From positions 1 through 56,158 of IMG/VR virus record IMGVR_UViG_3300042868_008634: a stretch of DNA of 56,158 nt, one strand, 5' to 3'. Every line of letters begins with the position of its first letter. Position 1 is the first letter of the stretch. The notes beneath the pieces were generated by a model, which had not been told where the DNA came from, ran no database searches, and was given only the letters and a program-made list of their open reading frames with translations. This DNA is from a virus. Made by a program: the position numbers and the translations under genes. Shown here piece by piece: positions 6,378-56,158 of the stretch.

Positions 6378-8006
6378 TTATCCTTCTATAATTTGGTTGA
6401 ACCAACCTTCACTCATATTATTGATAATTACATTTGCGTTTTCAACTGTTGAAGCAAAGTTGTTTTCAAGAAGATATGATGCTACAAATTCGTATGCTTC
6501 ATATGCCTCTCTATTGAGTTGCTTTTTCTCTCTAGGAGTCAGAGCACCTCTTTGTGCTCCTCTTGCTGCCTGCTTTGCTTTTACGGCAGGGTCATCAGAC
6601 TTGTGAGCATATCCACGAAGACCATAATCAGAAGAAGTTGTCTTACGAAAATCACCTCTTTGCTTTCTGGCAAGATTTTGTCTTGCTGTTGGATTTACAC
6701 CTCTTCGACCATAAGTTGGTCTGTTTTCTAATTCAGTTGCTCTATCTGCTGCCTCTCCACCACCTGTTGATTTTGCAATTCTATTACGGATTGCTGTCTC
6801 ATCGTGGCCTCTCTTAGCCATTGCAGTTGCTTCATCAAGTTCAAACTCTTCATTATATGGTTTTCCTTTAACCTTTGCGATTGCAACTTCTTTGGGAACA
6901 CCAGAAGCAATCATTCTTGCGATTCTTACATCAGCAAAGTCATTATCACCATCTTGGTCCTGGTCTACTTTTTTCTTTGCTTCGTAAATTGATGAATAAG
7001 CATCTGCAATATCTTTAATTGTTTTAGCAGAAGGCCATTCGTAAGATGATTTTTGCGTCATTGGTTTTAGTGCTCCTGTTCCTGGAGTTGGAGTTTTAGT
7101 GGGTTTTGTATTATTTATACCAGTTGCTGGTTTTAGTGGGTATTTAGACATATCCCTTGGAGTGAATTTCTGCAAATCTGCTGCTGCACTTTTCACATCA
7201 GGAACAGCAGGAGTAGGACCAGTCGTAGGAAGATTGGTTTTTTGTGCTGCTTGAAGTGCCTTTTCTGGTGATGCACCAGATGCTCTTGCTCCTTGTGCTG
7301 CTCTTAATTCTGCAGATGTTGGTGTTCTTCTTTCAAATGAAGTATTTCCCAACTTACCGATTGCTGGTTTTGGTGCCGACGCAGCAGGAGTTGGTGAAGA
7401 TGGTTTTGGTGTTCCACTTGAAGCAGAACTTCTTGCAGCATTTTGTGCGGCAACACTTGAATAACGAGACTTCTCTGCACCACTAAAAGCACCAGCAGTA
7501 AACTTACCAGTTGCTTTATCTAATTTTCCTTCAACTCCTTTTTGTTTTGCAAGGACGGTTGAAGATGCTGCTGGTCTTGGTGGAGGTGTTGAACCTGACC
7601 CTGCTGGTCTTGGTGGAGGTGTTGAACCTGACCCTGCTGGTCTTGGTGGAGGTGTTGAACCTGAACCTGCTGCTGGTCTTGGGGTAGGTTTATTTCTCCC
7701 TTCTTCTTTATTTAATCTATCTGCCAGAGATAGTGCTTCTGGAGTTTTAGTGTAAATTGTTTTATATTTACCATCTCTCAGCACTACACCCATATCTCTT
7801 CTTTGGTTTGTTGCATCAATCGTTCTTTGTGCTTCTTTTTCTTTTCTCACTCTATCCCGCATTGCTTTCATAGAAGAAGATGAACCAGGAAAAGATTGTG
7901 GCAATCCAAGTGAATCCACAATACCCTCATCAAGTTGCTCCACATCTTGAGAATAATAAACTTCCTCATATAAGTTTGCTAAAGCACCCAAGTCCTGCTT
8001 ATTCAT
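6378..8006 (-). CDS. Putative virion-associated protein (542 aa) with PRPAGSGSTPP repeats
   Basis: I start it at the ATG 8004-8006 (MNKQDLGALANLYEEVYYSQ); the longer frame needs a TTG. The N-terminal helix ends in QLDEG, an LxE-G site like those cut by T4 prohead protease gp21. A long low-complexity, Pro/Ala/Ser-rich and basic middle follows, with three 11-residue repeats of the PRPAGSGSTPP type. Near residue 350 is KKKVDQDQDGDNDFADVRIA, an EF-hand-like acidic loop. The last 38 residues (ASYLLENNFASTVENANVII, NMSEGWFNQIIEG) match a module in two other window proteins. A late promoter precedes it. It is probably packaged or head-associated (inference); no enzyme motif is visible. Confidence 0.6.
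   Translation of the reverse strand: MNKQDLGALANLYEEVYYSQDVEQLDEGIVDSLGLPQSFPGSSSSMKAMRDRVRKEKEAQRTIDATNQRRDMGVVLRDGKYKTIYTKTPEALSLADRLNKEEGRNKPTPRPAAGSGSTPPPRPAGSGSTPPPRPAGSGSTPPPRPAASSTVLAKQKGVEGKLDKATGKFTAGAFSGAEKSRYSSVAAQNAARSSASSGTPKPSSPTPAASAPKPAIGKLGNTSFERRTPTSAELRAAQGARASGASPEKALQAAQKTNLPTTGPTPAVPDVKSAAADLQKFTPRDMSKYPLKPATGINNTKPTKTPTPGTGALKPMTQKSSYEWPSAKTIKDIADAYSSIYEAKKKVDQDQDGDNDFADVRIARMIASGVPKEVAIAKVKGKPYNEEFELDEATAMAKRGHDETAIRNRIAKSTGGGEAADRATELENRPTYGRRGVNPTARQNLARKQRGDFRKTTSSDYGLRGYAHKSDDPAVKAKQAARGAQRGALTPREKKQLNREAYEAYEFVASYLLENNFASTVENANVIINNMSEGWFNQIIEG
7571..7682. repeat. 33-bp tandem repeat, three copies
   Basis: Three near-identical 33-base units inside the 542-aa gene, encoding the PRPAGSGSTPP repeat. 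Nearly identical at the DNA level, so copy number probably changes by slippage or recombination. Confidence 0.8.
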
Positions 8007-8036
8007 TTTTAGCAATAAAAAGTATTTTTATATACT

Positions 8037-18137: not shown

Positions 18138-19550
18138 TCACCACTTAACTTTATTTGCCCAATAAGCAGCAGACATTTTTCCTTTAGAAATATTCTTTGC
18201 GTGTCCTGTTTGGAATCTATGACGACGACTTGCATATGCCTCAGACTCACCTTCTTTTTTTGGAGAACCTTTTACACCAAGTTGCCCAAAACGAATAATT
18301 TTTTCTGTTCCACCTTCACAAGCCTTTACAATATGTGACTTTCCAGTTTCACCAGACCCGTGTGCTTGTGATTTTGGTTTGTTGCACTTCATTGCATCTT
18401 TATCAACAGATTCAGAAAGACCTTCATCACTTTGGAGATATTCGGAAGCAGTATCAATATAATCTGCTGCTCTAGTAATTTTTGATTGAACCCAAGCAGG
18501 CATTTGCATATCTGCTTTTTTTATCTTTTTGCGAAGTGCTTTGATTGCTCTTTCCATTTGGTCCAATTCAACATTTGCCATATAACCTTCATCATCTTTT
18601 TTCTTACCACTGGCAATTTCCTTATGGTCCTCAGAAATATTTGGATTAATCTCAATAAATTTTGAGTTAGTGCCCTTCATCACATCAATCTTATCTTTTT
18701 TGTTTTTTGTCTTTGCAGTTTTTTCATTCTTTAATTCATCAACTTCAAACAAGAATTCTTCTCTCCAATTTGAATATTCTTCATTTCTTTGGGCAATAAG
18801 TCCTGCTTTGATTTTTGGATTTTGTCTTGCCCTCTGCCCCAAAGTCATTGCTTTTGGACCTCTTGACCCCTCAGGAACACCACCAGATGATGGAAGTCTC
18901 TTGGTAGCAGGAACAAGTCTCTTAGTTGCAGGAACAAGTCTCTTAGTTGCAGGAACAGGTCTTTTTTGTTCTGGACTTGATGAAGATTGTTGAGTTGATA
19001 ATGAAACTGGAGGTCTTTTTGGTCTTCCTGGTTTTTTTCTTTCTCTTGCTTTTTCTGGTTGATTTGAGGTGACTTTAGTTTCCTTTGCTTTTTTATATTC
19101 TCCTTTTGCTTTTAAATAACCAGGAGTATGAATTGCTGCTTTTGCCAATCCACCTGCAAGAGAACCTAAATTGCCAAGTGCTTTCATTGTGGCAGTTGCC
19201 CCACCTTCTTTGGAACCAATCGTATCAGTTTTTACACCACCAATTGCTGACTTGATTCTTTCTTTTGATTTTTCAAGATTTTTTTCTTTTATTCTCATTA
19301 ATTTTTGCTTTTTCTTTTCTTCTTCCTGTCCTCTTTGCTTTTCAATTTCTTGTTCTCTTGTTGCTTGACGACGCTCAAGATAATCCAAATATCTAGAATC
19401 TTTTTTATCTTCCTTTTTTCCAGTTTTCCCTTTATCCAAAAGAGCAGAACCCTTCAATGCAGTCTTAGCAATTTTAAGTCTTCTTTGCCTTTCTGCTTTT
19501 TCTTTATTTTTATCTTTTGCTTCAGAAATAATCTCTGCCCAATCTTTCAT
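18138..19550 (-). CDS. Putative capsid-associated protein (470 aa), repeat-rich
   Basis: The N-terminus MKDWAEIISEAKDK resembles T4 capsid-targeting sequences (such as MKTYQEFIAEA of internal protein III), with an IxE-A cleavage-type site. Residues 15-100 are a highly charged coiled coil. The middle is basic and Pro/Ser-rich with four VPATKRL-type repeats. Near residue 270 is NWREEFLFEVDELKNEK, then DHKEIASGKKKDDEGYM. The C-terminal 80 residues (KSHIVKACEGGTEKIIRFGQ, ISKGKMSAAYWANKVKW) are a conserved module I have seen in phage and large-virus proteins of unknown function. A late promoter lies upstream. Role inferred as packaged protein. Confidence 0.6.
   Translation of the reverse strand: MKDWAEIISEAKDKNKEKAERQRRLKIAKTALKGSALLDKGKTGKKEDKKDSRYLDYLERRQATREQEIEKQRGQEEEKKKQKLMRIKEKNLEKSKERIKSAIGGVKTDTIGSKEGGATATMKALGNLGSLAGGLAKAAIHTPGYLKAKGEYKKAKETKVTSNQPEKARERKKPGRPKRPPVSLSTQQSSSSPEQKRPVPATKRLVPATKRLVPATKRLPSSGGVPEGSRGPKAMTLGQRARQNPKIKAGLIAQRNEEYSNWREEFLFEVDELKNEKTAKTKNKKDKIDVMKGTNSKFIEINPNISEDHKEIASGKKKDDEGYMANVELDQMERAIKALRKKIKKADMQMPAWVQSKITRAADYIDTASEYLQSDEGLSESVDKDAMKCNKPKSQAHGSGETGKSHIVKACEGGTEKIIRFGQLGVKGSPKKEGESEAYASRRHRFQTGHAKNISKGKMSAAYWANKVKW
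18893..18961. repeat. 21-bp tandem repeat, about three copies
   Basis: Repeats encoding VPATKRL within the 470-aa gene; the last copies are nearly identical at the DNA level. Confidence 0.7.
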
Positions 19551-20746
19551 CTTTTTGTAGATAATTTTTTCCTATTGATATTTATCGTTTTCTTTGGCAT
19601 AGTTTCTTTAACTTCAACATCAGTAAAAGAAACCACAGGTTCTTTAGGTGTCATTTCCTGTGTGTGCTTTCTGTAATTACAAGTTCCAACTTCATAAACT
19701 TCACGAACATCTTTCAACCAATTTTTAAACATCTTTCCATCTTCAGTTACACAAATCAAGTAATTAGAACCTCTGCGGAATATTTTTCCAATAAGACCAC
19801 TACTCAAACTTTCCACAAATGTACCAACTTCAAAAAGTCCATTGTTCTTATAATTCCACCTCAATCCATCATAATCAAGTTCAGGAACAATTCTCCAAAC
19901 TTCTGTGTCTTCAGTTACATTCATAGATTTTGAAACCATATTAAATATTTTTTCTTTGTCTGCCTGACTTATTCCAGAAGGAATTCCCTGAACAAATCCA
20001 GCATAATCTCCTACTGCTGCAGATGTTCTCATTTTTGCAGAAGAACCAGGGTCTTCAATTTCACCATCAGGGTCTTTAATTCCAGCAGATATAACTTGAA
20101 TATTATTAAACTGATAGTCTTGACCCTCTCCCTTATGAACTAAACTTTGAAATTCTCCCAATCTGTCTTGCCCAACCACAATAGTAACATCAGTATATCC
20201 ATCATTATAAATTGAGACTAAAGAATCAAAAACAGTTCTAGTTTCTTCACTATCAACAATATATTCAGAATATTTTTTAAACATCATTCTCATAAGAGAA
20301 ATTTTTGTTTTTGGACTTAATGGATTTGATTGACCATCTTGGATTCTACTTGGATATATTCTATACTCATATCCCATTCTTTTTGCATTATTAAATCCTG
20401 CTTTTAATAATTGTTCGTGATTTTTGGATGGGGGGTTAAATCTCCCTAAAACTACTACAATTCCATTTGCAGTTTGTTCTGCTGGTAGTTTTTCTGTTGT
20501 AGATGGTTGTGGTGCTGCTTGAGTTGCACTACTTTGTTTTTTTGTTTCTTCTCCGGGTATTCCGTCTTGAGATGTAGTATCACCTTGACCAAAAAACTTT
20601 AATTTTCCGTTTACTGTTTTCGCAACAAAATTTCCTTGCTTATCATACCAATCACCGTGTCCGTTTCCAACAAGACCACGATTTTTTGCTTCGGTAGATG
20701 CAAGGGTTTCTACTGCTTCTCTTACAAATTGAGTAAAACTCTTCAT
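19547..20746 (-). CDS. NMN-adenylyltransferase-like protein with capsid-targeting-like N-terminus
   Basis: Residues 1-11 (MKSFTQFVREA) closely match T4 internal-protein targeting peptides. After a Gln/Thr/Pro-rich linker, a nucleotidyltransferase domain begins at about 95: VVVLGRFNPPSKNHEQLL (GRFxPP with the conserved His), LSPKTKISLMRMMF, VVGQDRLGEF, and SSAKMRTSAAVGDYAGF, the ISSTxxR-like site. The C-terminal beta module (GKIFRRGSNYLICVTEDGKM, FKNWLKDVREV) recurs in marine phage proteins. NMNATs join NMN and ATP to give NAD. Late promoter upstream. Injection of an NAD-synthesis or nucleotidyl-transfer enzyme with the DNA is a hypothesis. Confidence 0.72.
   Translation of the reverse strand: MKSFTQFVREAVETLASTEAKNRGLVGNGHGDWYDKQGNFVAKTVNGKLKFFGQGDTTSQDGIPGEETKKQSSATQAAPQPSTTEKLPAEQTANGIVVVLGRFNPPSKNHEQLLKAGFNNAKRMGYEYRIYPSRIQDGQSNPLSPKTKISLMRMMFKKYSEYIVDSEETRTVFDSLVSIYNDGYTDVTIVVGQDRLGEFQSLVHKGEGQDYQFNNIQVISAGIKDPDGEIEDPGSSAKMRTSAAVGDYAGFVQGIPSGISQADKEKIFNMVSKSMNVTEDTEVWRIVPELDYDGLRWNYKNNGLFEVGTFVESLSSGLIGKIFRRGSNYLICVTEDGKMFKNWLKDVREVYEVGTCNYRKHTQEMTPKEPVVSFTDVEVKETMPKKTININRKKLSTKR
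19579..19586 (-). promoter_or_regulatory. Late promoter GATAAATA
   Basis: Fits NATAAATA, 29 bases before the 470-aa gene, within the end of the NMNAT-like gene. Confidence 0.5.
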
Positions 20747-20764: not shown

Positions 20765-20772
20765 TATTTATA
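20765..20772 (-). promoter_or_regulatory. T4-type late promoter TATAAATA
   Basis: Exact match 19 bases before the NMNAT-like gene. Confidence 0.65.
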
Positions 20773-29823: not shown

Positions 29824-30432
29824 TCAACCAATAATACTATTTCTCCACTCCTCACTCATATTCACCATAATTGCTTCTGCTGCTTCTGGTGTTTCAGCAT
29901 ATCCTTCATCAAGTAAATGTGAAAGAATGATGTCGTAAAGGTCGTATTGGTCAGCGAGTCCAATTCCAGCAATACCATATCTTCCACCACTACCTGGTGT
30001 ATATCTACCAGTTCCTGATGGTGTTCCAGACCCACCTAAAGAGGAACTTGCTCCTGGTTTTGAACCAGTTGGTTTAGGTTTTTCAATACGATAAGCATTT
30101 GGTTTTGAACCAGTTGGTTTAGGTTTTTCAATACGATAAGCACCCGTAGTTCCAAAACCCCTACTTTGCCCCTGTCCTTGAGGACCATATGCAGCAGATT
30201 TTTTTACCTGACCCTCAACTGTTTTTGCGGCAAGGGATGCAGATGCTCTTGTTACTGTTGGAGTATTTTTTAATTTATCAATAGATTTTTGAGTATCTCT
30301 TTGAGCATCATCCAATCTTTGATTAGAAACTGCATTTCTTGCTCTGTCTGCAACAGAACCTTCATTAAGTTCTTGCGAAGAATAAACTTCCAAATATGCT
30401 TCTTGAAGATTGCGAAGTTCTTGTGCGTCCAT
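29824..30432 (-). CDS. Putative virion-associated protein (202 aa) with AYRIEKPKPTGSKP repeats
   Basis: The true start is the ATG at 30430-30432 (MDAQELRNLQEAYLEVYSSQ): the longer frame would place the late promoter inside coding sequence. An LxE-G site (QELNEGSVA) follows the N-terminal helix, as in the 542-aa protein. Two copies of a 15-residue repeat, AYRIEKPKPTGSKP, lie near residues 98-127, then a Gly/Ser-rich stretch. The last 38 residues (YDIILSHLLDEGYAETPEAA, MVNMSEEWRNSIIG) are the shared C-terminal module. Probably a late head-associated protein. It lies oddly among early genes. Confidence 0.62.
   Translation of the reverse strand: MDAQELRNLQEAYLEVYSSQELNEGSVADRARNAVSNQRLDDAQRDTQKSIDKLKNTPTVTRASASLAAKTVEGQVKKSAAYGPQGQGQSRGFGTTGAYRIEKPKPTGSKPNAYRIEKPKPTGSKPGASSSLGGSGTPSGTGRYTPGSGGRYGIAGIGLADQYDLYDIILSHLLDEGYAETPEAAEAIMVNMSEEWRNSIIG
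30056..30142. repeat. 42-bp direct repeat, two copies
   Basis: Two identical 42-base units separated by 3 bases inside the 202-aa gene, period 45 bases. Confidence 0.85.
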
Positions 30433-30451
30433 TTTATGAATACTTTTTAAG

Positions 30452-30459
30452 TATTTAGA
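30452..30459 (-). promoter_or_regulatory. Late-type promoter TCTAAATA
   Basis: One mismatch to TATAAATA, 20 bases before the 202-aa gene. A 7-base hairpin (AATACTT / AAGTATT, 30439-30455) overlaps it. Confidence 0.5.
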
Positions 30460-30479
30460 ATAACACTTCACATAAAAAA

Positions 30480-41146: not shown

Positions 41147-42589
41147 TCACATAAGGTTCTTAACTTGAACTCTTCTGTAGTAACGGTTTGAGTTGGTCTG
41201 AATACGACCAAGATTGGTCTCAGGAGCTGATGCAGACTTACCTTCAGCAAATGGATTAGCAACAAGACCATAACGAGTCTTGAATCCGATTTTTGGCTGG
41301 AAGGTGTTCTCACCAACTGCACGAACCATTTGAAGAGGAACGTATGGGCAGTAGAAGAGTCCTGCGTCATAAGGTGAAGAACCCTTATAACCAACAACGT
41401 AATACTGACCACCAGTTGCTCCAGTTGCTGGGTTACCAGCACCACCTGAATATGGGTCAATGTAAACTCTGTACTTACCGTTCAGAACACCAGCAAAAGT
41501 ATTGCCAGTATCATCAACGTTCAGGTTAGCATTGAGTGCAGGTGTATAATCAAGAAGACCTGCCATTGAGAGTGCAGAAGCAACGTCAGAAGAGCACATA
41601 ATAATGTTACCCTTTCCTCTACGAGTACGCTGTGCAATTGCGTTTGCGTCTCTTTCGATTTGGAAAATCAGACCCTTGAACTTTTCAACTGACCAACGAC
41701 CATTGGAGTCAATGTCAAGGTCAAAAGTACCAGCATTAGCAACGTTGAACTGAGCACCAGATTCAGCAGTCTTATAGATGGTACGAATAACTTCACGGTT
41801 GATTTCAGCAAGAATCTCTGTTGAGAGAATGTTTGCTAATTCAGCCTCAGCATTCAGACCGTGAATTGCCTTCAGGTCTTGTGCAAGCTCAAGTGAATAC
41901 TCGGCTTTCAGTGCTCTGGATTTTGCAGTAACGGTGACTTTCTCAATTGAGAATGCCATCTCATTGAATGAAGCACCGGAGTCGGAACCAAGAATCTCTG
42001 CATCAGCAGTGGACATACCACCACCAACGTTGTAATCTTGCTGAGAACCACCAGCACTAAGAAGACCAGGATTGCTACCAGATTGTGCAGCAGTAGTACC
42101 AAAACCTACGTTTGCTTCAACAGTAGGATTAACAGCATACTGAGATTGATTACCCTTTCTACCAGAGAACTGAGTATCAACTTCATCAAAGAATGCCTCG
42201 GCACCTGATTGGTTGGTGTAACGTGAACGCATTGCGAAGATAAGTCCTGTAGGACCATTCATTGGTTGAACACCTGCGAGGTCATATGCGACCAGGTTAG
42301 GCATTGAACGACGGATCAGGGAGATCAGAACAGGATCAAAACCTGCTACTGGACCACCTGCAACAGCACCACCAGAGAAACCAGCAGTGTTACTGGTTGA
42401 ACCAGTTGTGCTAGTTGGTGCTCCGGTTTCGTAAAGAAATGATCTTTCTTCACGAAGGAATTTTTCTTGATTCTCCAGGAGAACCGCAGTTACCATTCTG
42501 CGATGTGAGTCTTTGATTGGGTCCAGACCTTGATAGTCAAGGAGTGGTGACCACTTCTCCTGCAGATGCTCCGCATTGAACATTTGCAT
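41147..42589 (-). CDS. gp23: Major capsid protein
   Basis: A 480-residue HK97-fold protein. MQMFNAEHLQEKWSPLLDYQ begins an N-terminal delta domain that gp21 removes; FLYE-TGAPTS near residue 55 is the probable cut site, by analogy with T4. Then RRSMPNLVAYDLAGVQPMNG and PTGLIFAMRSRY, the most conserved T4-like segment, and FIQ-type C-terminal part ending RYYRRVQVKNLM. GAGGT is well placed before the ATG. It builds the head hexamers. The terminator after it makes it the end of the head transcript. Confidence 0.96.
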   Translation of the reverse strand: MQMFNAEHLQEKWSPLLDYQGLDPIKDSHRRMVTAVLLENQEKFLREERSFLYETGAPTSTTGSTSNTAGFSGGAVAGGPVAGFDPVLISLIRRSMPNLVAYDLAGVQPMNGPTGLIFAMRSRYTNQSGAEAFFDEVDTQFSGRKGNQSQYAVNPTVEANVGFGTTAAQSGSNPGLLSAGGSQQDYNVGGGMSTADAEILGSDSGASFNEMAFSIEKVTVTAKSRALKAEYSLELAQDLKAIHGLNAEAELANILSTEILAEINREVIRTIYKTAESGAQFNVANAGTFDLDIDSNGRWSVEKFKGLIFQIERDANAIAQRTRRGKGNIIMCSSDVASALSMAGLLDYTPALNANLNVDDTGNTFAGVLNGKYRVYIDPYSGGAGNPATGATGGQYYVVGYKGSSPYDAGLFYCPYVPLQMVRAVGENTFQPKIGFKTRYGLVANPFAEGKSASAPETNLGRIQTNSNRYYRRVQVKNLM

Positions 42590-42639: not shown

Positions 42640-43866
42640 TCACTTTTTAGAAACTCTTCCAAGTGCATCAAGATAATGGGCCATTGACCCTGAAACTTCT
42701 TGATGATACTCCATACCTTCTGTGATATAATCTGAGTTGTCTAGTTGAGCACCAGTATGTCTTGGGAAATATGATTCCCTTAGAGTTACCAGCTTCTCAC
42801 GATAGTCTGATTCACTATCAAACTCAACATTTTCGGCAAGAGAAGCAAGTTTGTCTTTCTGTGAAAGAGCAAGACCCTCAGTAACTTCGGCAAAGATTAC
42901 ATCGGTAACTGATTCGGCTAATCTCTTATTTAGAGCAACATTTCTTTCAATTTGCTCGTTGAGTTTTGTCTCCATTTCATCAAGTTTATCTACCATACTT
43001 TCAATGACATCATATTTCTCTTCAGGGATTGTTACATAATGTTCTTCAAAAAGTTGCTTCATACCTGAGAGGAAACTCTCAGTCATTTCAGACTTAATGC
43101 CTTGCTCAATTGCAAGAGCATTTTCCTGAACCCATTCATCAGCAACATACTCAAGATAAGAATCAAGTCTTTCAGTGAGTTCTTCCTTAATTGCATCAAT
43201 TTCTTCAATAAGTTGCTGTTCGTAATGTAAAACAACTGCTTCTTCAATCTGTTTTGTTCTAGCATTTAATGCTGCTTCAAAAACAGTTTTTGCTTTTACT
43301 TTAAAATCTTCGGAAAGTTCTTCTCCAGAAAGAAGAGCAGAAACATCTTCCTCAATTTCTTCTTCAATTTGGGCAAATGCCTCTTTCATTTTCTTTTTCT
43401 TTCCGTCCTCGTCTTCTTCATCTTCCTCTTCACCTTCTTCTTCACCCTCTTCTTCTTCACCCTCTTCTTCGTCTTCTTCGGACTTATGCTTAGCTTCTGC
43501 TACTACTTCCTCTTCACCTTCCTCATATTCTCCTTCTACGAGTTCTTCATCTTCATCTTCTTCTGAAGACTCCTTTACAGGAGAAGCCATTTTTTTCATT
43601 CCTTCTGCTGCTTTTGCACCCTTATTTACAACATCCTTAACTTGCTTAAGAGTTGTTGAAGGGTCTTTTAATTTTGCAGAGTCATCATCTGAACGATAAT
43701 TTTCTGGAGTAGGACCACCAAGGTCTTCCCAACTGCCTGTTTGACCATCAGGAATTCCTGTGGTTAACTTTTGCATTGGTTCTGCTGCCTTTGCACCGGC
43801 ATTTACAGCAGTTTTAGATTGTTTTGTGTCTGATTCCATTTCTTGTAAGTTTCTACCACGGGACAT
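42640..43866 (-). CDS. gp22: Prohead core scaffolding protein
   Basis: A 408-residue protein with a very acidic Glu/Asp-rich tract at about residues 100-165 and a long coiled coil beyond (LYEQQLIEEIDAIKEELTERL, DEMETKLNEQIERNVALNKR). The C-terminus (SESDYREKLVTLRESYFPR) is conserved in T4-like scaffolds. It forms the inner core of the prohead and is degraded by gp21 during maturation. It is flanked by gp21 and gp23 as in T4. Confidence 0.92.
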   Translation of the reverse strand: MSRGRNLQEMESDTKQSKTAVNAGAKAAEPMQKLTTGIPDGQTGSWEDLGGPTPENYRSDDDSAKLKDPSTTLKQVKDVVNKGAKAAEGMKKMASPVKESSEEDEDEELVEGEYEEGEEEVVAEAKHKSEEDEEEGEEEEGEEEGEEEDEEDEDGKKKKMKEAFAQIEEEIEEDVSALLSGEELSEDFKVKAKTVFEAALNARTKQIEEAVVLHYEQQLIEEIDAIKEELTERLDSYLEYVADEWVQENALAIEQGIKSEMTESFLSGMKQLFEEHYVTIPEEKYDVIESMVDKLDEMETKLNEQIERNVALNKRLAESVTDVIFAEVTEGLALSQKDKLASLAENVEFDSESDYREKLVTLRESYFPRHTGAQLDNSDYITEGMEYHQEVSGSMAHYLDALGRVSKK

Positions 43867-43936: not shown

Positions 43937-44587
43937 TCAAAGCATATCCAAAAACTTTTCAAAATGCTGTAATTTTCTCTGTTCAGTTAATTTTCTTTGT
44001 TTTACATCCTTTTCAATAATATTTTTAATTGATTCCGCAATCCAAGTTTTTTTATTGGAATCATATATCCATTCTCTCCCTTCCATAATTCCATTCACAA
44101 AAGCATCAGGAGCAGAAGGGTCTGCAACAATATCAGCAGCAGTTGCAAGCATAAAATCTTCACCAACTAAAGAATAACCTTCATTAGTTGGAATCAATGA
44201 ACCAACACCACGAGAAGAAACACCAAGACAAACTCCTTCACCTAAAAGAGAAGAAGCAATTTTGCCCATTGGAGTTTCAAGAATTTTTGCTTTTCCCATA
44301 AAATTATCATCTTTTCTTTCAAGCATAGTAATTTTATGGGATACTCTATCAAGATTTAAAGTTGGTCCATCTGGATGTCCCAATTCACCAAGAGCACGAC
44401 CTTTAGCAATAAAATTTTCATTATATCTTTTGACTTCTCTTTCAAGAGTTCTCATTTCATATAATCTTTTATTTCTATTTGGTCTATTTGCCTGAAGAAA
44501 AACACCTTCAATAAAAAGGGATTTAACTCCATTTTTTTCTTCGGTAATTACTTTTACCTTTTCTATTTCTTCTGTGATAAGTTTCAT
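43937..44587 (-). CDS. gp21: Prohead core protein protease
   Basis: A 216-residue serine protease of the phage prohead family. Start MKLITEEIEKVKVITEEKNG at the ATG 44585-44587, 4 bases after the previous stop; the longer frame overlaps that gene heavily. Seen: LFIEGVFLQANRPNRNKRLY, ALGELGHPDGPTLNLDRVSH with the catalytic His, and GVCLGVSSRGVGSL with the catalytic Ser. It cuts scaffold, capsid and internal proteins at LxE or IxE sites. Confidence 0.92.
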   Translation of the reverse strand: MKLITEEIEKVKVITEEKNGVKSLFIEGVFLQANRPNRNKRLYEMRTLEREVKRYNENFIAKGRALGELGHPDGPTLNLDRVSHKITMLERKDDNFMGKAKILETPMGKIASSLLGEGVCLGVSSRGVGSLIPTNEGYSLVGEDFMLATAADIVADPSAPDAFVNGIMEGREWIYDSNKKTWIAESIKNIIEKDVKQRKLTEQRKLQHFEKFLDML

Positions 44588-44591
44588 TGGA

Positions 44592-45146
44592 TTAACCACC
44601 TGCGATTTGAATTTCTGTGATGTGAAGTTTTCCACTTGCACCATAAGCAGCAACTTTTGTTACTCTTCTCAAAACACCAGTGGAAGTAGTAATTGGAGCA
44701 CCTTGACTTGAAGTATTCCAAGTAAGAGTAATTACTCTATTAAATCCACCTGTTCCAGCATCATTCGTTGCATCAACTGATGCAACAGTTGCTGCTGTTG
44801 TGTTAATTCCTGCGGGAACAATACCAGTAAGTTCAACAATATCACCAGCAGAAAAATCAGAGAAAGTACCTTCTGGTAAAGTCACAACAGTGGTAGTTCC
44901 AGTAGTTACACCAACAATAGTTTGAGTGACTGCGGTATCTTTTAAAACAAGTTCAGTTCCAGCCTTCACAAAAATACTAGCATTCGTAGAAGTACTAATT
45001 GTTGGGGTTGGAGCAACCTCAACGTAAGCATCTTGTTCTGGAACAATTCTCAAAAAACCAGACCTCAAAGCAATTGGATTACTGGTCACTGCTGCACCAG
45101 TCATCGTCAATGGCGTAATTTTTTGTACAATCTTATATACGGACAT
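44592..45146 (-). CDS. Putative virion structural protein (184 aa)
   Basis: A 184-residue Thr/Val/Ala-rich beta protein: MSVYKIVQKITPLTMTGAAV, IFVKAGTELVLKDTAVTQTI, FSAGDIVELTGIVPAGI. The strand-rich, low-charge make-up and a late promoter (45170) mark it as a virion protein, perhaps an outer decoration. Along with the next two genes it forms an insert between the gp67-like gene and gp21, where T4 carries only gp68. No specific function recognised. Confidence 0.65.
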   Translation of the reverse strand: MSVYKIVQKITPLTMTGAAVTSNPIALRSGFLRIVPEQDAYVEVAPTPTISTSTNASIFVKAGTELVLKDTAVTQTIVGVTTGTTTVVTLPEGTFSDFSAGDIVELTGIVPAGINTTAATVASVDATNDAGTGGFNRVITLTWNTSSQGAPITTSTGVLRRVTKVAAYGASGKLHITEIQIAGG

Positions 45147-54891: not shown

Positions 54892-55060
54892 TTATACCAA
54901 TTTGTGTCATAACTTCTTGTTGCTTCAAATATAATTTAACAAATGATTTTGCTATATCTTTTACTTGTTCTATATTTTCGCAAGTATCTAATTCTCTTGA
55001 AATCCTTTCATATTCAAAATTTTTAGATAAACAATCAAGAATAATTTTATCTGGATCCAT
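54872..55060 (-). CDS. Small helical protein before gp17 (62 aa)
   Basis: A 62-residue two-helix protein: MDPDKIILDCLSKNFEYERI, then ENIEQVKDIAKSFVKLYLKQ and QEVMTQIGI. It occupies the place of terminase small subunit gp16 directly before gp17 and overlaps it by 20 bases, but is much shorter than T4 gp16. The helix pattern also recalls NblA, the phycobilisome-degradation adaptor, in a loose way. I do not assign a function. Confidence 0.6.
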   Translation of the reverse strand: MDPDKIILDCLSKNFEYERISRELDTCENIEQVKDIAKSFVKLYLKQQEVMTQIGIIDGKTL

Positions 55061-56158
55061 CTAATTCTCCTGTAAATAATAAAGGTTTTGTCGGGTCTTT
55101 TGGTGCAGGGTTGAAAGTTAAAACAATAGCACCTGGGTATATTTTTCTCAGTTCATAAGTCACCTGTGGTTTTGATGGTCTAGTGAATTGGGGGAAAAAC
55201 ATTTGAGATGAAAGAGATCTTCCTCTCCAATTAAAAATTATAGTATAAGTTGAACCTCTTGATTGTATTCTAGTATATATTTCTCGGATATTTTTTATTT
55301 TATTGTCAGAGTAATTATATTTTACTTCCTCATTTGCTGGATGGGGTCTATTTGGGTCATATTTTTTATTATAAATTTGAATCGTGGGAAATGTCGGTTC
55401 AACTGCAGAAGAATATAACAACCAATACTTTGGACCATATTTGCACTCTTTCATATATTCCATCTTTTGGCAGTTGGGACAATATCTCTTTTCCCCTTGA
55501 TATATTGGTCCATCCCAATCATATGCAAGAGCATCAGTACTTTCTGTTTTTGTTCCCCAACTATCTGCACCAACCTTACGGCACTTAACCAAAGCACCAG
55601 AAGCATAAGCAGAAGGCCAAACCCTATATCTAGATTTTACTTTATGGTAGCAAGCATCTTTTTTCTCAATAATAGTTTCTTCTGTTGCAACATTAGTTGG
55701 TTTTGCAGAACCAGATTTTTGTGGTTGATTTGGATCTTTTTTATTTTTTCTTCTAAATGCTTTATCCTCTTCTTCATCTGATAAGTTTGCTGCCATCTTG
55801 GAACTTCCGCATTTTGGAGTAGAAGTTTGTCCAGGTTGACGAGCACAAGGAGCACCAGCAAATGGTCCACCAATCTGACGCCACCCCGGAACTTTTCTTC
55901 CAGTTTTGGGGTCTATTGCGTCGGATTTCCTAAACCAATCCCCAAGAGTTTCATCTCCAGATGCAGTTTCTTCTTTAATTTTTTCTGCTTTCTTCAATCT
56001 TGTATAATAATCGGGCAGTTCTTCTAAGTGTTGAAGGGCAATCATTTTTGCCATTCTTTTGCTTCCAGTATGTTCACTTTCTACTTTAATACCCATCTCT
56101 AATTGGGAACTTAAAGTTTTCATTGAGATTTTATGCTTTTTCGCAATCTCTTCTAAGG
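55047..56158 (-). CDS. DUF5872-like virion-associated protein (3' part, runs off window)
   Basis: The frame stays open to the right edge with no stop, so the ATG at 56121-56123 is probably internal; upstream residues read LEEIAKKHKIS. The visible part has EHTGSKRMAKMIALQHLEEL (DUF5661-like), then WFRKSDAIDPKTGRKVPGWR, PCARQPGQTSTPKCGSSKM and ACYHKVKSRYRVWPSAYASG, the cysteine and lysine pattern of DUF5872, found in phages and large DNA viruses. The end is a separate module with RYCPNCQKMEY (zinc knuckle) and IFNWRGRSLSSQMFFP. It overlaps the next gene by 14 bases. Probably virion-associated; activity unknown. Confidence 0.65.
   Translation of the reverse strand, partial: LEEIAKKHKISMKTLSSQLEMGIKVESEHTGSKRMAKMIALQHLEELPDYYTRLKKAEKIKEETASGDETLGDWFRKSDAIDPKTGRKVPGWRQIGGPFAGAPCARQPGQTSTPKCGSSKMAANLSDEEEDKAFRRKNKKDPNQPQKSGSAKPTNVATEETIIEKKDACYHKVKSRYRVWPSAYASGALVKCRKVGADSWGTKTESTDALAYDWDGPIYQGEKRYCPNCQKMEYMKECKYGPKYWLLYSSAVEPTFPTIQIYNKKYDPNRPHPANEEVKYNYSDNKIKNIREIYTRIQSRGSTYTIIFNWRGRSLSSQMFFPQFTRPSKPQVTYELRKIYPGAIVLTFNPAPKDPTKPLLFTGELDGSR

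Follow-up and report, generated by a model that had tools for sequence, protein, structure and literature searches.

A T4-type internal-protein leader on two adjacent genes of a T4-like cyanophage marks candidate cargo of the phage head

Two adjacent genes of a T4-like cyanophage, coding for a 399-aa NMNAT-like protein and a 470-aa lysine-rich protein, both start with a ten-residue leader resembling that of the T4 internal proteins. We consider it quite probable that both products are prohead cargo of the T4 type, targeted by the leader, cut after Glu10 and entering the cell with the DNA. Packaging of the 399-aa protein is well supported; targeting by the leader, cutting at the E/A bond (a slash marks the cut), injection and an enzymatic role are what we infer by analogy with T4. 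Given the T4-type leader and the presence of orthologues of this NAD-type enzyme in related virions, the virus probably injects an NAD-type enzyme with its DNA.

The window, i.e. the whole 56-kb (56,158 nt) stretch of DNA that was analysed, is an incomplete contig of a T4-like cyanophage in which gp23, the gp22 scaffold and the gp21 protease were recognised by Pfam (Table 1); among annotated phages, it is closest to those of Synechococcus and Prochlorococcus. The protease and scaffold of a T4-type head, which leader-targeted cargo would need, are encoded in the same window; the leaders presumably bind to the scaffold. The true start of the protease is probably the internal MKLITEEIEK. The window gp23 has a candidate maturation site, SFLYE/TGAP, as compared with SFLTE/AEIGG of T4. 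The ends of leaders of the 399-aa type (FVRE/A, FLTE/A, FIIE/A) resemble gp23 maturation sites (FLTE/A in T4; candidates LLTE/A in S-CREM2, ILTE/A in S-SZBM1 and FLYE/T in the window). A second N-terminal motif, LQEAYLEVY or LYEEVY, is repeated in the window (29824-30471 and 6378-8015); a virion protein, S-SCSM1_89, has the similar LSEAYAAVY.

Table 1. Features of the window discussed in the text
Feature	Coordinates	Strand	Remark
T4-type late promoter core TATAAATA	20765..20772	-	perfect; 26 nt before the ATG of the 399-aa gene
399-aa nucleotidyltransferase, cyanophage-core 'cytidylyltransferase/NMNAT' family	19547..20746	-	phrog_395, E 1.3e-75
Leader MKSFTQFVRE, residues 1-10 of the 399-aa protein	20717..20746	-	predicted prohead-protease cut after E10
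GHGDWYDKQG...AKTVNGKLKFF module, residues 21-52	20591..20686	-	common to other cyanophage virion enzymes
Linker, residues 53-91	20474..20590	-	pLDDT < 50, low confidence
Nucleotidyltransferase core, residues 94-275	19922..20467	-	Foldseek top matches 9rpm, 8aih (NMNAT/NadD)
470-aa lysine-rich modular protein, second leader-bearing gene	18138..19550	-	17% K, pI 9.9
Leader MKDWAEIISE, residues 1-10 of the 470-aa protein	19521..19550	-	predicted cut after E10
AT-hook-like KKPGRPKRPP, residues 172-181	19008..19037	-	GRP-type motif repeated in variants of the 470-aa protein
phrog_32745-like segment, residues 302-376	18423..18647	-	
C-terminal phrog_7595 domain, residues 383-470	18141..18404	-	stand-alone ORF in other phages
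gp23 major capsid protein	41147..42589	-	Gp23, E 6.6e-150
gp22-type prohead scaffold	42640..43866	-	T4_CASP PF25623, E 3.4e-77
gp21-type prohead protease	43937..44653	-	Peptidase_S77, E 1.3e-34

Mutagenesis of T4 IPIII has shown residues 1-10 to be sufficient for packaging, residues 4 and 7 being important for targeting and residues 8 and 10 for processing (PMC9026906). From these positions we derived the pattern ^M..[FYW]..[FILVMY][FILVM].E. Among 105 ORFs of the window (ATG-initiated, at least 60 aa) it matched two, the adjacent 399-aa and 470-aa genes, whose leaders carry suitable residues at both the targeting and the processing positions. Residue shuffling gave a match rate of 6.7e-4 per ORF, i.e. 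0.07 matches expected (Poisson P for two or more, 0.0023); two adjacent leaders are more than chance would give. The likeness of MKSFTQFVREA and MKDWAEIISEA to the T4 leader, proposed in a first-pass annotation, was confirmed for both N-termini, their coordinates and the key positions.

The start M[KR]xFxxFxxEA is found in each of the 73 complete relatives that the 399-aa protein has in viral contigs. Retrieval of these 73 was biased towards proteins with the adjoining GHGDWYDKQ motif; for this reason, two homologues that keep the leader but lack the GHGDWYDKQ module, S-CREM2 gp154 (MKNFSSFLTEA) and S-SZBM1_140 (MRFRQFIIEA), weigh heavily. In an alignment of 31 divergent NMNAT-like homologues, these two among them, M1, F4, F7, E10 and A11 are invariant and positions 3, 5, 6 and 9 vary; judged from this alignment, the invariant residues are those functional in T4.

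A leader matrix trained on 19 distinct cyanophage leaders only, with T4 absent from the training set, was applied to all possible starts in six frames of the T4 genome. Internal proteins ipII, ipIII and ipI ranked second, third and fifth; the fourth place was taken by a start within a longer frame. The best match, above ipII and ipIII, was gp61.1 (NC_000866, 18966-19130; locus L221), an uncharacterised protein of 54 aa that starts with MKTFKEFIKED; to judge by its N-terminus, it is possibly an unrecognised internal protein.

According to the respective papers, orthologues of the 399-aa protein are present in purified virions of S-SCSM1 (ORF91; PMC9602691), S-SM1 (T4-GC190; PMC3037559), S-CREM2 (gp154, 3 peptides; PMC10665884) and S-SZBM1 (S-SZBM1_140, 2 peptides; PMC9146016). 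With four virion proteomes in agreement, and with the residues used in T4 for targeting (4 and 7) and cutting (10) invariant, the earlier suggestion that the NMNAT-like protein is packaged in the capsid is strongly supported.

We rebuilt three published virion proteomes (S-SCSM1, S-CREM2 and S-SZBM1) from annotated records and published lists. Leader scores were bimodal: 9 of 719 proteins scored at least 10, the next one 5.7. Six of these nine had been detected in virions, vs 124 of the other 710 (p = 0.0016; length-stratified p = 0.04). When the NMNAT orthologues were left out, three of six leader proteins were detected (p = 0.07; length-stratified, 0.24), so the independent support is moderate. 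Taken by itself, S-CREM2 had each of its four leader proteins in the virion (p = 0.003), and gp6, gp14 and gp154, three of the four virion proteins that its authors list as regulatory or nuclease, bear the leader (p = 9e-6, post hoc). Three small leader proteins, S-SZBM1_191, S-SZBM1_192 and S-SCSM1_30, were not detected in the published virion proteomes. Loose regular expressions for the leader, tried as well, gave no enrichment among virion proteins because they caught unrelated starts too; the trained matrix separated the leaders cleanly. S-SCSM1_30 (L171:9215-9535) and S-SZBM1_191 are conserved proteins of ∼105 aa (phrog_1742), possibly core proteins consumed during maturation.

Proteins with no relation to each other, of kinase-like, SAM lyase, DUF5661 and basic types, have the same leader. 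Among virion proteins of S-CREM2 it is borne by the kinase-like gp14 and by gp6 (L006:3837-5081), which has an S-AdoMet lyase domain (PF23780, E 2.3e-19) and is, on the strength of this domain match, a candidate for an injected anti-restriction enzyme. The Cas9-like virion protein gp12 has LRFASFMAEA from residue 17, plus the GHG module; its counterpart in S-CRM01 is arranged in a similar way, and the kinase of that phage starts with MISFDQFLSEK. A profile of residues 21-52 of the 399-aa protein finds S-CREM2 gp14 and gp12, both virion proteins. The module GHGxWYDKxG...VAKTxxGxLxFF is common to the NMNAT-like protein, a kinase-like protein and a Cas9-like protein, all of them virion-associated.

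A window ORF at 55047-56158 runs off the contig. In the closest large relative of the window (G001), the related gene codes for a 399-aa DUF5661 protein that starts with MKTFSRFLIEA; the complete window gene would therefore probably be the third with a leader. The same relative has three leader-bearing genes within 3 kb (G001:C1:216333-219332, locus L185). One of them codes for a 440-aa protein that begins with MKTYQEFISEA, one residue off MKTYQEFIAEA of T4.

The 399-aa protein has homologues in 518 phage records; searches of Pfam and NCBIfam gave no match for the window protein itself. In an AlphaFold2 model the core has pLDDT ∼90, the leader forms a short helix of low confidence, and the segment of residues 53-91 is probably disordered; mean conservation is 1.9 bits in this linker vs 3.3 in the leader. 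The top 16 Foldseek matches are all NMNAT/NadD enzymes (best E 3.7e-6, to 9rpm), as expected for a nucleotidyltransferase fold, with identity of only 10-16%. The (T/H)xGH signature is absent from the window clade, where PSKNH replaces it; other family members have PTxGH or PHxGH. Catalysis is therefore uncertain, with the second His of the active-site motif invariant and Arg240 of the second motif kept. The proposal of an NAD-related or nucleotidyl-transfer enzyme is borne out as to the NMNAT-like fold, from which the chemistry is deduced, and weakened by the loss of (T/H)xGH; NAD chemistry is plausible on the basis of the model. A NAPRT/NAMPT partner (PF04095) was absent from the window and from three related large contigs (possibly incomplete), while the positive controls were recovered. 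A search for a SAM lyase in relatives of the window matched neither such a gene nor its controls, so it carries no weight.

As to transcription, late promoters had been assigned to both genes. This is true for the 399-aa gene, which has a perfect TATAAATA, whereas for the 470-aa gene there is just a degenerate GATAAATA, situated inside the preceding gene. The window contains 15 TATAAATA sites vs 5.67 expected, a number reached by no shuffle; ATAAATA as such is not enriched. ATAAATA lies at most 60 bases upstream of the 399-aa gene in 28 of 33 relatives (perfect TATAAATA in 13 of 33); in this upstream comparison one clade (L069-L084) had no late promoter ahead of the gene. The end of the 399-aa gene and the start of the 470-aa gene overlap by four bases (19547-19550), and the latter is therefore probably co-transcribed and translationally coupled with the former.

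The 470-aa protein had been put forward as a second packaged enzyme. The enzyme part is not borne out: no enzyme signature was found in this protein, which is probably a basic, DNA-associated core or internal protein, with DNA binding suggested by the AT-hook-like motif. Packaging in the head is likely, though with indirect support: twelve different N-termini of this gene slot retain the leader, and the virion evidence is only positional or at the level of domains. S-CREM2 gp137 and S-SCSM1_29, both virion proteins, match the C-terminal part of the slot profile. S-SCSM1_92 and S-SZBM1_139 occupy the same slot, lack the leader and were detected in virions; we rejected them as orthologues since the 470-aa profile finds neither, and their detection gives positional support only. 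A site-like GLSE/SVDK precedes the phrog_7595 domain, for which the AlphaFold2 model is of low confidence (pLDDT 67). In many podo- and siphoviruses this domain forms a small ORF of its own. The slot also has an alternative C-terminal domain (SFCARMxGM...WNC), which in S-SZBM1_192 is joined directly to a leader.

Could these be ordinary late cytoplasmic proteins, with an N-terminus that is simply the conserved start of a family and a detection in virions due to carry-over? Carry-over of abundant soluble proteins is named as possible by the authors of two proteome papers (PMC9602691, PMC10665884), and detection in S-SZBM1 and S-CREM2 is based on the few peptides given above. The NMNAT of S-CBWM1, a non-T4 cyanomyovirus, has no leader, as expected without a T4-type head, yet was reported in virions; either there are further ways into the particle, or carry-over does occur. 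We regard carry-over as a very unlikely explanation here, as it does not account for a leader of identical type on kinase-like, SAM lyase, DUF5661 and basic proteins, for detection of the NMNAT-like protein in four phages or for the fact that the leader model picks out the internal proteins of T4.

A second possibility is that the leader does target the scaffold core and the proteins serve head assembly or DNA packaging instead of being injected. The core proteins of T4 are degraded to peptides in the head. Such a fate would agree with the small leader proteins missing from mature virions, and the basic 470-aa protein with its AT-hook-like motif would suit an assembly role. Enzyme domains (NMNAT-like, kinase, SAM lyase), however, make little sense as scaffold, and T4 IPI, with a leader of the same kind, is an injected anti-restriction protein (PMC3012670); we hold a pure assembly role to be unlikely. 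About equally doubtful is the view that the 470-aa protein has its leader-like start by chance and that the NMNAT-like protein is the sole cargo. The matrix score of this leader is much lower (10.5 vs 25.4 for the 399-aa leader), and some members of the slot have quite different starts, which makes the second leader less universal; on the other side, W4, I8 and E10 are kept in the twelve distinct N-termini while the sequence directly after the leader changes completely.

The reading we favour, prohead cargo delivered with the DNA, would proceed as follows. The cargo genes would be transcribed late; the aromatic residue 4 and hydrophobic residue 7 would bind the scaffold core during prohead assembly; a cut after Glu10 by the gp21-type protease would free the protein within the head; and cargo and DNA would enter the cell together. 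Early in infection the 399-aa protein would most likely serve NAD or a related dinucleotide, for example against an NAD-depleting defence, while the 470-aa protein would probably act as a basic, DNA-associated core or internal protein.

More broadly, we lean towards the view that T4-like cyanophages possess a general system of protein delivery, in which a single ten-residue leader loads exchangeable cargo into the head (an NMNAT-like enzyme, a protein kinase, a SAM lyase, a Cas9-like nuclease and basic DNA-binding proteins) that would act before phage gene expression and would probably be directed against defence. The presence of NMNAT-like proteins in virions is already known; new, as far as open-access papers go, are a signal, legible in the sequence, by which cyanophage virion cargo can be explained and predicted, and an N-terminal package shared by unrelated enzymes. 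In the open-access literature we found no report explaining virion NMNAT-like proteins by a targeting leader. Enzymes in cyanophage virion proteomes have been a puzzle, with contamination suspected, for more than 10 years, and the leader offers a testable reason for their presence. Being readable from sequence, it allows further cargo to be predicted from the genome of any T4-like cyanophage, with anti-defence candidates like a virion SAM lyase among it. As cyanophages are very abundant, proteins delivered at entry could matter for the takeover of marine and freshwater cyanobacteria.

Compared with known systems, the leaders are like those of T4 IPI, IPII and IPIII in having ten N-terminal residues with an aromatic residue 4, F7, a hydrophobic residue 8, Glu10 and then Ala11; late expression and a T4-type head with a gp21 protease are likewise common to both. 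T4 IPI is injected and inhibits a restriction enzyme; the leader is all that the T4 internal proteins have in common (PMC3012670). Unlike the small T4 inhibitors, the window cargo, known here from sequence, would consist of a 399-aa protein with an enzyme fold and a 470-aa basic protein. The 399-aa protein is orthologous to T4-GC190 and S-SCSM1 ORF91 and has the same neighbourhood beside mazG and gp41; those proteins are reported in virions with no targeting mechanism given in the accessible parts of the publications, and the window clade differs in its altered HxGH motif. The core shares its fold with NadD/NMNAT enzymes and departs from them in its 10-16% identity, its degenerate active-site motif and its extra N- and C-terminal modules.
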